This document shows, piece by piece, positions 15,216 to 20,458 of a DNA stretch of 64,000 bases; the first letter of the stretch is position 1; each line of letters starts with the position of its first letter. A model generated the notes under the pieces. The model searched no databases and had not been told where the DNA came from. It was given only the letters and a program-made list of their open reading frames with translations. This stretch comes from an uncultured Treponema sp. Its GTDB lineage: Bacteria > Spirochaetota > Spirochaetia > Treponematales > Treponemataceae. Both the position numbers and the translations under genes were made by a program. The stretch covers positions 1 through 64,000 of the forward strand of contig CAMCRZ010000012.1 of the NCBI GenBank assembly GCA_945877425.1, written 5' to 3'.

Positions 15216-16052
15216 ATGAAAAAAATTATTTTAATAGCATCGTTATGTGCATTTGCAGCAGTTGGAATTTTTGCAAATGATTCTTTTACACCAGCAGGTT
15301 CAGTTTCGTCATATACCAAGACAACTTACAACGTAACTTCTAAATTCGGTGAATACTTTCGTTCAGTTGCAGTAAAAGACGTTCACGTTTTTAATTCCAG
15401 CGGACTTGAAACAGAAGTTGCATATTATTACGGCAAAGACGAACTTGGCGACAAAGTAACTTTTACTTATGACGTAAGCCGCAACCTTACAGGCGCAACT
15501 TATACAGACGCAGCTGGTGCAGTAGTAACAAAAGTTACTAGAGAATATCAGTCAGACGGAATGATAAAATCAGAATCTGAATTTAATGCAGCCGGAGTTT
15601 TAACAGGAAAAACCATTTACAAATACGAGCCTTCAAAATCAACAGAAAGCTACTACGACGAAAAAGGCGCGCTTCTTTCAAGAAACATTACAACTTATAC
15701 TGCAGACGGAAAAGTTTCACAAATCGATTCATACTTTGCAGACGGAACTCTTTCAAACAAAAAAACATTTACTTACGGAGAAAACGGCAAGCTTTCTCAA
15801 ATTGAAACAAGTGACGAAGCAAATAAAGTTACGGCAAAAGAAGTTTACCGCTACGACGGAAACGGCAGCATTTCAGAAGTTCAGACTTACAATTCAATAA
15901 ATGCACTTGTTCAGCGTAACATTTACAAAACTGATGCAAAAGGAAATCCTGTAAAAATCAGTGTGTATGAAGTTTCTGAAAAATTCGGTTCTACTGTAAA
16001 TGAACTTCTTTCTATAACTGAATACGTTTACAAATACGATTCTGGAAAATAA
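15216..16052 (+). CDS. exported protein with YD-repeat-like beta repeats
   Basis: A 278-residue secreted or periplasmic protein: signal peptide ending near IFAND (cleavage about residue 20), then some eight to ten repeats of roughly 20 residues with a recurring pattern of tyrosine, Asp/Asn-Gly and hydrophobic strand (for example TYTADGKVSQIDSYFADG, TYGENGKLSQIETSD). This pattern resembles RHS/YD repeats and antitoxin-like YD-repeat wedges. No enzymatic motif. GGAGG precedes the ATG. It is divergent from the LysR gene with a 107-base shared region and ends in a strong terminator, so it is transcribed alone. Its function is unknown; binding of a ligand or cell-surface partner is a guess. Confidence 0.75.
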   Translation: MKKIILIASLCAFAAVGIFANDSFTPAGSVSSYTKTTYNVTSKFGEYFRSVAVKDVHVFNSSGLETEVAYYYGKDELGDKVTFTYDVSRNLTGATYTDAAGAVVTKVTREYQSDGMIKSESEFNAAGVLTGKTIYKYEPSKSTESYYDEKGALLSRNITTYTADGKVSQIDSYFADGTLSNKKTFTYGENGKLSQIETSDEANKVTAKEVYRYDGNGSISEVQTYNSINALVQRNIYKTDAKGNPVKISVYEVSEKFGSTVNELLSITEYVYKYDSGK

Positions 16053-16062
16053 TTTTTAACTT

Positions 16063-16098
16063 AACTGCTGTAAGCTCTTGTTTGCAGCAGTTTTTTTT
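16063..16098 (+). terminator. intrinsic terminator after the YD-repeat-like gene
   Basis: Stem AACTGCTG/CAGCAGTT with a 14-base loop, running directly into eight T (16091-16098). Confidence 0.9.
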
Positions 16099-16188
16099 GC
16101 AAATACGTTACTTTTTTAATCTACTAAAGAATATCAAGAAATCCGCCGATAATAGAGAAAATGGAATTTTATTCCAGTGAGGTATTCA

Positions 16189-18354
16189 ATGAAATCAATA
16201 GGAATTAAACTGGCAGACGGAACATTTTATCCTATTCTCCAGGAAGGTTCTCCCGACTCTAAAAATATAAATCTTACTACTGTTCAAGACAATCAGACTA
16301 CAGTTCACGTTGATTTATACCGATCTGAAACTAATTCAATGGAAGATGCCCAGTACGTTGATACTCTTGAAATCAAAAATTTAAATCCTCACGAAAACGG
16401 CGAGCCTACTTTAGCCCTTGAAATAAATCTTGACGAAAACAATCAGCTTAATGCGCAGATAAAAGATCCTGAAACCGGCAAAAAAAGTGAAACTCAAATC
16501 AACCTTATTTCCCGAACTCTTGCGGACAGAAACGAGCCTGTAAATTTTAACATTGACATTGAACCGCCTGAACAGGACTTTAATAAAGAAGAAAATGCTT
16601 TTCCACAAGAGCCTGACTTTGACAATACAATTGCAAATGATTTTGTTGATGGATTCAGCAACGATGATTCAGAACCAGAAGTTAACGCTGATTCTGATTT
16701 AGATTTAAACGACACAGAGGAAAATGAAGTGATAGGACCTTCTCCAAACGATGAAGACTTTTCTTTTGATTCAGTTGATACGCCTGCTGACAAAAAGACT
16801 GAACATGAAAACGCTGATGTAAAAGCTGAAATTGAAACTCAGGAACAGGAAAATTCTTTGCCGGAAGTTTCCGTTATTGAACAGGACGAGTCTGACATTG
16901 CGTCTGCCATTTCGGAAGAAGAAGTTCAGTTCCTTCAGAAAGAAAATCTTACGCCGGAAGATTCAGAGCCAGAAGTTGCACCGGACTTTTCTCAGGAAGA
17001 TGAGTTTACACTTCCAGACTTTGACGACGAACCTAGCGCTTCAACTGATGCAGCAGACACATCTGATACAACTGAAACATCAGTGCCAGACGCTGCATCG
17101 GACTTTTCTCAGGAAGATGAGTTTACACTTCCAGACTTTAACGACGAACCTGCCGCTTCAACTGATACCGCAGACACAACTGAAACAGCAGAGCCAGACG
17201 CTGCACCAGACTTTTCTCAGGAAGATGAGTTTTCACTTCCAGACTTTGACGACGAACCTGCCGCTTCAACTGATGCAGCAGACACATCTGAAACAACTGA
17301 AACAGCAGAGCCAGACGCTGCACCGGACTTTTCTCAAGAAGATGAGTTTACACTTCCAGACTTTGACGACGAACCAAGCGCTTCAACTGATGCTACCGAC
17401 ACATCTGATACAACTGAAACATCAGAGCCAGACGCTGCACCGGACTTTTCTCAGGAAGATGAGTTTACACTTCCAGACTTTGACGACGAACCTAGTGCTT
17501 CAACTGATACAGCAGAGCCAGAAGTTGCACCGGACTTCTCTCAAGAAGATGAGTTTTCACTTCCAGACTTTGACGACGAGCCAGCCGCTTCAACTGATGC
17601 AGCAGACACATCTGACACAAATCAGCCTAGCGTAGTTGGATTAGGCGGAATTTTTGACGACAACTTTGGAGAACCAGATTTGACTAGCGATAATTCAGAC
17701 TTAACCGATGATCTTTTTGAAACTAAAGACCCAACCTTTGTACCTAAAAACGATATGTTCAACGACCTTTACGATAAAGAAACATTGGAAGGAAATTCAA
17801 CTTATACAGAAGAAAATGAAATAAAGCACAAAACAAAAGTGCCTGTCATCATCTGCATTGTATGTGCAGTTATTTGTATATTAGCCGCACTTCTTGTACT
17901 TTTCGTAATTCCTTCAAGAATCAACTTAATAAACAAAGCAAAAACTTCTGAGCCGCAAAAAGTTGAACAAAAAGCAGAACCTGAAAAAGAAAAACCGAAC
18001 ACAAAATCAGCTGAACAGGAAGAACTTAAAACCGAACAGCCGGCAGCAGAACAAAATCCGCTTCCAGAAGAAATACAGGAAGAACCAGTTGCAGAGTTAG
18101 CAGAACCAATTCCTGCAGAAGAAGATAAAATTGTTGTTGCAGAAATTCCTGAAGCCGTAGTTCCAGAACAGCCCGTTGTAGTAGAAAAACTTCCTGACAT
18201 AATTTACAAAATTAAATGGGGCGACACACTTTGGGACATTTCAAACGCTTACTACAAAAATCCATGGCGCTATAAACCTCTGGCAAAATACAACAACATC
18301 AAAAATCCTGATCATATTATTTCGGGACACACAATTAAAATTCCTCAGGAATAA
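16189..18354 (+). CDS. membrane LysM protein with N-terminal Hsp70 substrate-binding-like domain and tandem acidic repeats
   Basis: 721 residues from the ATG at 16189 (GAGGT five bases upstream; an in-frame GTG at 16177 is rejected). There is no signal peptide. Residues 1-110 match the order of motifs in the beta part of the Hsp70 substrate-binding domain: SIGI...G near the start, TTVQDNQTTVHV, LNPHENGEP, and D-x-x-TGK towards the end. An acidic region with six tandem repeats (about 262-478) follows, then a single membrane helix near 551-576 (PVIICIVCAVICILAALLVL), a Glu/Pro-rich periplasmic spacer, and a C-terminal LysM module (YKIKWGDTLWDISNAYY, about 672-721) that should bind peptidoglycan. 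It is followed at 64 bases by a lytic transglycosylase, suggesting a joint role in wall remodelling. The Hsp70 resemblance is my reading; LysM and the helix are clear. Confidence 0.85.
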   Translation: MKSIGIKLADGTFYPILQEGSPDSKNINLTTVQDNQTTVHVDLYRSETNSMEDAQYVDTLEIKNLNPHENGEPTLALEINLDENNQLNAQIKDPETGKKSETQINLISRTLADRNEPVNFNIDIEPPEQDFNKEENAFPQEPDFDNTIANDFVDGFSNDDSEPEVNADSDLDLNDTEENEVIGPSPNDEDFSFDSVDTPADKKTEHENADVKAEIETQEQENSLPEVSVIEQDESDIASAISEEEVQFLQKENLTPEDSEPEVAPDFSQEDEFTLPDFDDEPSASTDAADTSDTTETSVPDAASDFSQEDEFTLPDFNDEPAASTDTADTTETAEPDAAPDFSQEDEFSLPDFDDEPAASTDAADTSETTETAEPDAAPDFSQEDEFTLPDFDDEPSASTDATDTSDTTETSEPDAAPDFSQEDEFTLPDFDDEPSASTDTAEPEVAPDFSQEDEFSLPDFDDEPAASTDAADTSDTNQPSVVGLGGIFDDNFGEPDLTSDNSDLTDDLFETKDPTFVPKNDMFNDLYDKETLEGNSTYTEENEIKHKTKVPVIICIVCAVICILAALLVLFVIPSRINLINKAKTSEPQKVEQKAEPEKEKPNTKSAEQEELKTEQPAAEQNPLPEEIQEEPVAELAEPIPAEEDKIVVAEIPEAVVPEQPVVVEKLPDIIYKIKWGDTLWDISNAYYKNPWRYKPLAKYNNIKNPDHIISGHTIKIPQE
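16966..17622 (+). repeat. six in-frame tandem repeats, periods 117/108/117/117/90 bases
   Basis: The word GACTTTTCTCA(G/A)GAAGATGAG (one copy with TTC) recurs at 16984, 17101, 17209, 17326, 17443 and 17533. Units encode PDFSQEDEF(T/S)LPDF(D/N)DEP followed by a Thr/Asp/Ala-rich tail of variable length. All periods are multiples of nine bases, so copy-number changes keep the frame. Confidence 0.95.
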
Positions 18355-18418: not shown

Positions 18419-20458
18419 ATGATTGCAAAATTTTTACTACTGATTTTAATTTCACTTTTTTCCATTTCATGCACAAAGGGAAACTCTTTGCAAAAAGAAT
18501 ACGGCGAAAACGACTCTTACTTCAGGGCGCTTTTGCTTTTAAAAGACGACACTCAATCAGAAAAGGCAATTCCCTTACTTAAAGCTTCAGCAAAAAAAGG
18601 CAGCCCTTTAATAGCAAGACGTTCACTTGAACAGCTGGCACTTCTTAGCCCGCAGAAAAAACAGCTTAAGTATTACAAGAAAATTTTTACTGATTACAAC
18701 GACAGCAGCGCTTTACTTAATTACATCTGCGAACTTGAAGCTCAGCAGGACTACGGAAAAATCATTTCCTTAACAGACAATCTTTCCCCGGAACTTGCAA
18801 CTGATAAAATTACGGCAGTCAGAATAAATGCACTGCTTTACAAAAAAGATTTACGTTGCGGAAAAGAATTTTTAGAATGGTGCTTTACAAAACCATACAC
18901 CGCTGAACATGAAAAAGTTTACAGACAGCTTTCTGCAGAAATTCCTGGAGTAGAATTCCGGTCTTTAGTTTTTAACAGGAAATATTCTGAAGCTTACAAG
19001 AATTTAAAAATCATCCTTGGAAATAAAGAATTACAGAAGCCACAACTTTTTTCTGATGCAGGAAAAGCAGCACTTTACGGTTCAAAAAGTTTTCTGGAAA
19101 ACGCTTACTATTTCAGTTCACTTGCAGAAAATGCTCCTTTGGACTGTAAGTTTTATTCTTACTTTTACAGCGGAAGACTTTTCGAAAAAGCATCAGATTA
19201 TAATTCCCAGGCTTTGCTTAATTTCCAGAATGCAATGAACTTTGCAGAAACACCGCTTATGTACGACAACGCCCTCTGGTATTATCTGGAAACTTCCTTG
19301 AAAAAATCAATTCCTTCAGCTTTAGACGCACTTAAAACTTACGGTCACAAATGGAACGATCCTTTTTACTTTGATGATTTTTTAAGCACACTTTCTTTAA
19401 GGCTTATTTCACAACATATGTGGAAAGAGTACATTGAAACTGCCGGACTTATAAGCACATTTGCATCTAAAGAGTCAAAGGCAAAATTCGCTTACGTTTC
19501 AGCACGACTTTTACAGTTGAACTATCTGCCTGTTCCTGAAAACATTGCATCAGAACAAGCCCGGTCTTTTTTCACAATGGCACTGGACAGCGGCAATGAA
19601 TTTTACTACAAACTTCTTGCGGCCAGCCAGCTTGGTTTTTCCAAAGAGCAGTACGAAAATCTCATTCTTTCTTACGGCACTGAATGCACAGAGCCTGTAA
19701 ATTATGATGCTTCCGTCTTGCTTAAAGGTTACGCCGACTACGGACTTCCTGAACTTATTTACGATGAATGGAAGAATTTTCCTTTAGAAATAACAATGGA
19801 CTGTTCCCTGAAAATTTCACAGTTTCTGTTTGAATGTGGAAAAGAAAATGAAATTTATTATCCGCAAAGTTTGAGAATTTCTTCAAGAAAAGTCAACTAT
19901 CCTGAAACTAAAATAAACAGAGAAATGCTTTGCCTTTCTTTCCCAAAATGCTTTGAAAAAACTGTAGAAAAATATTCTGAAGAATACAACATAGAGTCTT
20001 ACCTGCTGTTTGCCCTTTTACGAAGCGAAAGTTTTTTTGATGCAAAAATTTCAAGTTCAGCGGGAGCGGTAGGTCTTGCACAGTTAATGCCTCTTACAGC
20101 TTCTGATGTTGCACGAAAACTAAAGATAGAAGACTATTCTTTAACAGATGCACAGACAAGCATTCAGTTCGGAACTTTTTATCTTGAAGAAATGATTCGC
20201 CGCCTTGACGGACAAAAACTTCTTGCAGCATTTTCTTACAACGCAGGAATTTCAAAAGTAAGGAATTTATATTCTTCAGCAAAAATTGAAATGCAGACAG
20301 ACAACATTCCCATGGACATTTTTCTTGAAGCCCTTCCAATTGAAGAAACAAAAGAATACGGCAGAAAAATAGTTTCCGCTTCATGCCTTTACGCATATCT
20401 TTACAACAGCAAGCTTCCTTCCCAAGTCATAGCAGAAATATTTACCGCAACACCTTAA
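18419..20458 (+). CDS. soluble lytic transglycosylase-like lipoprotein
   Basis: A 679-residue protein with a signal and lipobox-like SISC (cysteine about residue 19), a long helical solenoid region (about 60-510) like the Slt70 superhelix, and a C-terminal SLT catalytic domain from about 520. The catalytic glutamate is Glu537 in LRSESFFDA, followed by GAVGLAQLMPLTA and FSYNAGISKVRNLY. It cleaves the glycan backbone of peptidoglycan with anhydro-muramyl formation. It lies behind the LysM membrane protein; the 64-base gap can form a stem-loop (CAGCATGG/CCATGTTG) without a T run directly after it. The stop at 20458 is followed by a short intergenic element. Confidence 0.92.
   Translation: MIAKFLLLILISLFSISCTKGNSLQKEYGENDSYFRALLLLKDDTQSEKAIPLLKASAKKGSPLIARRSLEQLALLSPQKKQLKYYKKIFTDYNDSSALLNYICELEAQQDYGKIISLTDNLSPELATDKITAVRINALLYKKDLRCGKEFLEWCFTKPYTAEHEKVYRQLSAEIPGVEFRSLVFNRKYSEAYKNLKIILGNKELQKPQLFSDAGKAALYGSKSFLENAYYFSSLAENAPLDCKFYSYFYSGRLFEKASDYNSQALLNFQNAMNFAETPLMYDNALWYYLETSLKKSIPSALDALKTYGHKWNDPFYFDDFLSTLSLRLISQHMWKEYIETAGLISTFASKESKAKFAYVSARLLQLNYLPVPENIASEQARSFFTMALDSGNEFYYKLLAASQLGFSKEQYENLILSYGTECTEPVNYDASVLLKGYADYGLPELIYDEWKNFPLEITMDCSLKISQFLFECGKENEIYYPQSLRISSRKVNYPETKINREMLCLSFPKCFEKTVEKYSEEYNIESYLLFALLRSESFFDAKISSSAGAVGLAQLMPLTASDVARKLKIEDYSLTDAQTSIQFGTFYLEEMIRRLDGQKLLAAFSYNAGISKVRNLYSSAKIEMQTDNIPMDIFLEALPIEETKEYGRKIVSASCLYAYLYNSKLPSQVIAEIFTATP

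Follow-up and report, generated by a model that had tools for sequence, protein, structure and literature searches.

How spirochaetes choose the sites at which the cell wall is opened for their periplasmic flagella is, to our knowledge, not settled, and motility is important for the spirochaetes that cause syphilis and Lyme disease. The locus described here may bear on this question. It lies in a 64,000 nt stretch of contig CAMCRZ010000012.1 (assembly GCA_945877425.1) from an uncultured Treponema sp., referred to below as the window, and encodes a protein in which an earlier note, made from the sequence alone, had recognized a domain like the substrate-binding domain (SBD) of an Hsp70 chaperone, deprived of its ATPase half and fixed to the wall in an unfamiliar architecture. 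We ask whether this domain is what it appears to be, and what it might do in a membrane protein encoded beside a lytic transglycosylase.

Organization of the SBD gene and its product

The SBD gene (positions 16189–18354 of the forward strand, on which all features of the window given here lie) encodes 721 residues followed by a stop codon, and its ORF and domain matches give the order SBD, acidic repeat linker, membrane helix, periplasmic spacer and LysM domain. The start was assigned by reading of the sequence to the ATG at 16189, 6 nt downstream of a Shine–Dalgarno sequence GAGG (16179–16182), with an in-frame GTG at 16177 as the alternative. The SBD itself is an Hsp70/DnaK-type β-subdomain of eight predicted strands (residues 3–109; 16195–16515), assigned from Pfam and PDB matches and from an AlphaFold2 model. 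It is followed by an acidic low-complexity linker of about 440 residues (16516–17838), delimited by composition, with a net charge of −0.30 per residue and six LPDF-type motifs. Within the linker are tandem repeats of 117 bp and 90 bp units (16963–17606) coding for DFSQEDEFxLPDFxDEPxAST; the 117 bp unit is present in 4.8 copies (16963–17516), and the overlapping 90 bp array ends at 17606. A single membrane helix (VPVIICIVCAVICILAALLVLFVIP; residues 551–575; 17839–17913) is predicted from a peak mean hydropathy of 3.55, and is followed by a spacer rich in Pro, Glu and Lys (17914–18204), whose periplasmic location is inferred, and by a LysM domain (residues 673–719; 18205–18345) that matches PF01476 with an E value of 1.1e-8 and a score of 35.3 bits, above the curated cut-off of 20.9. 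The succession of acidic repeats, membrane helix and LysM set out in the earlier note is thus present in full, and the complete SBD–linker–helix–LysM architecture recurs in relatives.

The N-terminal domain is an Hsp70 substrate-binding subdomain

Residues 3–109 align with positions 393–501 of the Pfam HSP70 profile (E 5.9e-9, exceeding the curated cut-off), the protein matches the NCBIfam DnaK profile (E 1e-9), and the best match of its N-terminal domain among Hsp70 SBD sequences in the PDB has an E value of 3e-8. The motifs that had first suggested this assignment, SIGI (residues 3–6), DNQ (34–36), NP..NGEP and D..TGK (93–98), are all present in the order found in the DnaK β-subdomain. A predicted structure with a different fold for residues 1–110 had been named beforehand as the result that would refute it. 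Using an alignment of 30 orthologous N-terminal domains, AlphaFold2 returned a model with eight strands (mean pLDDT 81, pTM 0.67), for which every top Foldseek match in the PDB was an Hsp70 SBD (probability 1.00, E 7e-8), and which VIA-align placed on the DnaK SBD with a Z score of 16.2 and an rmsd of 2.1 over 111 residues. Only Hsp70 SBDs head the Foldseek and VIA lists, and a different fold was not found. We regard residues 3–109 as confirmed to be a real Hsp70 substrate-binding β-subdomain, on the strength of the predicted fold and of a sequence match that is independent of it. With the SBDs of Hsp70, DnaK and HscA (the C-terminal part of PF00012) it has in common the fold, the order of motifs and detectable sequence homology, as well as the equivalents of pocket residues I401, V436, I438 and I472, of Q433, of G468-x-P470 and of G494 of DnaK.

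The remainder of an Hsp70 is missing, as had been proposed for the ATPase half. The Treponema protein begins at the SBD, with no actin-like ATPase domain before it and a Pfam match that starts only at HSP70 position 393; the interdomain linker VLLLDVTP is also absent, the alignment to E. coli DnaK and to the organism's own DnaK beginning at DnaK residue 396; and in place of an α-helical lid the region past residue 109 is occupied by the acidic low-complexity repeat. Without ATPase domain, linker and lid the normal Hsp70 cycle is impossible. The protein differs from Hsp70 further in being membrane-bound. A full DnaK is encoded on a different contig of the same genome.

Conservation of the peptide cleft

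To examine the cleft we aligned 58 relatives to E. coli DnaK and to the DnaK of the organism itself. Conservation in the relatives is among the highest in two loop regions, IGIKLADGxFYP and LTTVxDNQTxV, which build the arch over the bound peptide. In the window they correspond, by alignment, to the first strand, loop L1,2 and second strand (IGIKLADGTFYP; 16198–16233), which is the most conserved stretch of the domain and the counterpart of the I401/M404 side of the DnaK cleft, and to the third strand, loop L3,4 and fourth strand (LTTVQDNQTTV; 16273–16305), the counterpart of the F426–V436 side. The equivalent of Q433 (Q36) is present in 56 of the 58 relatives and that of V436 is V or I in 50, and the positions of I401, V436, I438 and I472 are hydrophobic or identical throughout. 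F426 is replaced by L and, at the arch, M404 by A and A429 by V or A; K414 is E.

Twelve positions, chosen after the DnaK–peptide structure, were taken as the cleft. Their conservation averages 2.87 bits, compared with 1.96 for the rest of the domain (permutation p 0.002), although the margin is small when only hydrophobic positions are compared (2.92 versus 2.64 bits), and the conservation may thus largely reflect the fold. A working peptide pocket is plausible but not shown, and peptide binding is inferred.

DnaK prefers peptides with basic flanks, whereas the domain and linker of the SBD protein are acidic, a point against the reading proposed below. An Hsp70 pocket dedicated to one client has a precedent in HscA, which recognizes one LPPVK motif in IscU, and an HscA–IscU peptide complex was among the structure matches of the Borrelia SBD model described below. 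As a separate observation, the motif [LIM]PDF occurs 66 times in the acidic linkers of 64 proteins, compared with 0.7 occurrences expected from shuffled sequences. The 29 proteins that carry it include some from distant families; the count is inflated by repeats and by kinship, and the motif is a possible ligand.

Linkage to a flagellar lytic transglycosylase

The earlier note placed the gene just before a lytic transglycosylase, and this is borne out: 64 nt downstream is a gene (18419–20458) for a lytic transglycosylase of the BB0259 flagellar type (NF047373, E 3e-168; 561.8 bits against a curated cut-off of 234), with a lipobox-like LFSISC and an SLT domain near its C-terminus (PF01464, E 3e-25). 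This neighbour is the strongest functional clue to the SBD protein. Passage of the flagellar hook through the peptidoglycan of Borrelia depends on BB0259, which also interacts with FlgJ (PMC8517470); bb0260 is not mentioned in that paper. The enzyme is the partner of the SBD gene, which is an additional gene and does not itself encode the transglycosylase.

The recommended inspection of other treponemes gave the same picture. In 73 of 80 Treponema loci the next gene downstream is that of the transglycosylase, four loci being cut by contig ends and three having a different arrangement, and the same gene order is found in Borrelia and in most other families of the class, while in several genomes the LysM form is located away from the transglycosylase. 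The two genes probably form one transcription unit, an inference that we draw because a terminator-like hairpin of 13 pairs with a T tract (16063–16092) cuts the SBD gene off from its upstream neighbour. A scan for sigma-70 promoters was uninformative, with 9 found and 8.7 expected. The upstream gene (15216–16052), which precedes the hairpin, encodes an exported protein with YD/MORN-like repeats, to judge from weak Pfam matches.

Distribution of the family and variation in LysM

Matches are found in 143 of 145 genomes of the Treponemataceae; those near 1e-7 are DnaK itself, and almost all others are orphan SBDs. By our reading of the search listing, about 135 of 392 genomes sampled across the phylum carry the orphan SBD gene. 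It is present in nearly all Treponemataceae tested, in most other families of the order, in many other families of the class and in a few deeper families of the phylum (for example G145, G159, G188 and G195), the nearest named relatives of the window's protein being from gut and rumen Treponema. Outside the phylum the search was confined to one scan of genome contigs with a single motif, in which the best 80 loci were all from Treponema or other spirochaetes. A mobile origin was considered and rejected: plasmids gave only DnaK-level matches (three records), and the sole PHROG match (E 1e-6) covers just the SBD portion of a profile of 634 positions.

The proteins vary in length between about 200 and over 1000 residues, almost wholly on account of the acidic linker. 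Of 76 complete Treponema proteins 75 have LysM, which is absent from Borrelia and from several other lineages (L114, L115, L119, L126, L127, L130 and L140–L143). Sequence comparison thus points to an invariant core made up of SBD, linker and membrane helix, with LysM optional, and wall tethering is not an invariant feature of the family. The unfamiliar wall-fixed architecture that drew attention to this gene is therefore real, but it belongs to a conserved family and is not isolated, and its attachment to the wall is variable.

Many LysM-less forms have a short tail after the helix with a recurring PPL-type motif; just past the helix we find EPVPPL, DPVPPL, TPPL, EYPPL and EPAPPI among L114, L119, L126, L130 and L140, and this PPL/PPI motif is a candidate contact for the transglycosylase. 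In three genomes of one family (f5) a 200-residue SBD–helix copy lies beside the transglycosylase gene and the LysM form elsewhere; genomes of this family have two SBD paralogues, the 200-residue form adjacent to the transglycosylase gene and a second of 327–340 residues at another place (L140:4257-4853, L141:3308-3916, L146:5137-6159 and L150:4830-5813). In two genomes, G191 and G275 (L113 and L146), this second form adjoins a gene for an exported protein of about 1600 residues.

The T. pallidum-like orthologue sits between an MCP gene and gidA, in what we take to be the TP0041–TP0043 region. TP0048 was rejected as this orthologue, being annotated as CcmA, and a T. pallidum interactome passage concerns TP0046–TP0048 and not the SBD gene.

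The Borrelia homologue

The Borrelia homologue, a protein of 379 residues, gives a weak match (E 1.4e-6). Its gene has a 4 nt overlap with that of the transglycosylase (L111), and from gene order we infer that it should be BB0260. It was found in 27 of 27 genomes of the family (f6) that we infer to be Borrelia. In a Pfam search both the Borrelia and the T. pallidum-like domains were below detection. The predicted Borrelia structure (pLDDT 90, pTM 0.81) matches Hsp70 SBDs with a Foldseek probability of 1.00 and a VIA Z score of 13, so that the predicted fold of the product is confidently that of an Hsp70 SBD, with the reservation that its alignment included Treponema-type rows and the two fold predictions are therefore partly dependent on each other. 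An acidic linker and a single membrane helix are present in the Borrelia protein, but no LysM. The equivalent of Q433 is lost and loop L3,4 carries a one-residue deletion, so that the pocket may not work in Borrelia. At a distance of 3.4 kb from the Borrelia SBD gene is a gene for a 485-residue DnaK-like protein (L111:10382-11839, minus strand), shorter than DnaK, possibly a lidless second DnaK and conceivably an ATPase partner.

Co-occurrence with flagellar genes

FliG and the transglycosylase were surveyed in 80 genomes, 56 of them within the class and below. FliG is absent from 11 of the 56, namely nine genera of one family (f12), which by inference is probably the non-motile Sphaerochaeta group, and the two genomes G439 and G443; FlhA is likewise absent from all seven FliG-less genomes tested. 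The SBD gene is present in none of the 11 genomes without FliG and in 37 of the 45 that have it (Fisher p 5e-7), a tally that includes divergent or contig-edge forms recognized by gene order. Given the relatedness of the genomes, those without FliG represent two or three loss events and not eleven. In G439 and G443 (L137 and L138) the transglycosylase is kept and a methyltransferase-like gene occupies the upstream slot of the SBD gene; lacking FliG and FlhA as these genomes do, the enzyme may have a second, non-flagellar role in them. Conversely, the SBD gene was not detected in eight FliG-bearing genomes of the class, and Leptospira-like and other deep families of the phylum have FliG without it. 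It is thus not essential for periplasmic flagella as such.

Discussion

The SBD protein probably assists in flagellar assembly, in a role that has not been described. Our preferred reading, which we hold only tentatively and at somewhat less than even confidence, is that it is a bitopic inner-membrane hub at the site where the periplasmic flagellum is assembled; its client, peptide binding, topology and location are all inferred. The SBD at the N-terminus would lie in the cytoplasm, where its cleft would grip a resident flagellar client by an extended segment, without ATP cycling, much in the way that HscA recognizes one dedicated motif; candidates for the client are an early basal-body protein, an export protein or a placement protein of the FlhF/FlhG type. 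The membrane helix and LysM would anchor the client complex to the wall, and the lipoprotein transglycosylase from the next gene would thereby be recruited to open the peptidoglycan where the rod and hook will pass. The N-in, LysM-out orientation is adopted because LysM would be useful only outside. No N-terminal signal sequence is evident by eye, and Lys and Arg residues average 3.5 in the 15-residue stretch that precedes the helix as against 2.5 beyond it, a difference weakly consistent with this topology. A more specific version, in which the Hsp70 pocket is an ATP-independent, sequence-specific receptor on the cytoplasmic end of a hub that marks and licenses the sites of wall opening for periplasmic flagella, and in which the pocket may bind the [LIM]PDF motifs of the protein's own linker to give a self-assembling hub, is speculative and on present evidence unlikely.

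A known system with similar parts is HubP/FimV, in which a periplasmic LysM binds peptidoglycan and the acidic region shows little conservation and is often repetitive (PMC12918733), and in which the cytoplasmic part recruits FlhF and, through FlhF, FliG (PMC11236974). Common to both are a periplasmic LysM, one membrane helix, a long and variable acidic stretch, a cytoplasmic client-binding domain and a flagellar context. The parts of the SBD protein are, however, in reverse order: its LysM is C-terminal, whereas that of HubP/FimV is N-terminal with a signal peptide, which the SBD protein lacks, and an SBD replaces the FimV TPR domain. The likeness is one of convergent composition, and the proposed hub would act as a mirror image of HubP/FimV. 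Membership of the FimV/HubP family was rejected: no FimV_Cterm match above the cut-off was found in 17 spirochaete genomes, the weak ones in some of them (1e-2 to 1e-5) resembling chance TPR matches; TIGR03504 (FimV TPR) finds nothing in the window's genome at a threshold as lax as E 0.01; and an NCBIfam search of the SBD protein gave no FimV match.

Three other explanations have to be weighed. The protein could be a general envelope tether that joins a cytoplasmic structure, such as a cell-body filament or a shape complex, to the peptidoglycan and helps in wall remodelling, its pairing with the transglycosylase being a matter of general wall work and not of flagella. The near-universal LysM of the complete Treponema proteins, UppP-like genes in the neighbourhood in some genomes (L123 and L143) and the retention of the transglycosylase without FliG in G439 and G443, which suggests that the enzyme can have other roles, are all in keeping with this. 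The SBD gene, unlike that of the enzyme, is nevertheless missing from all 11 genomes without FliG, many lineages drop LysM while SBD and helix persist, and the flagellar role of BB0259 is proven (PMC8517470); we consider a tether of this kind unlikely, albeit not to be dismissed. That the SBD fold is a mere protein–protein scaffold, with the cleft out of use and contacts made by another face, seems to us improbable. It would accommodate the Borrelia form, without the glutamine and one residue of loop L3,4, the failure of Pfam to detect the Borrelia and T. pallidum-like domains and the slight excess of cleft conservation over other hydrophobic positions, but not readily the standing of the arch loops as the most conserved stretches of the domain in Treponema and related forms, nor the persistence there of the Q433 and V436 equivalents. 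An ATP-free holdase at the flagellar export gate, which would hold rod, hook or FlgJ-like export subunits in an unfolded state or pass them to DnaK/DnaJ, would suit the Hsp70-type pocket with its conserved cleft residues and the linkage to a flagellar gene, but is quite unlikely in a protein with no ATPase, linker or lid and thus no release cycle, with no J-domain or GrpE linkage seen, and with a LysM and a repeated acidic linker that it leaves unexplained.

A search of the open-access literature, outside whose scope lie subscription journals and most preprints, found no paper on the SBD protein and nothing relevant on BB0260 or TP0041–TP0043. The SBD fold and LysM are both known; open-access papers yielded no instance of their combination, nor of a trans-envelope flagellar partner that makes use of an Hsp70 pocket on its own.

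In summary, the SBD gene is a conserved and apparently unstudied partner of a known wall-cutting enzyme, and offers a direct test of how the site of wall opening is chosen. The proposed flagellar hub would, in addition, clearly exemplify an Hsp70 peptide pocket that works without ATPase, linker or lid.
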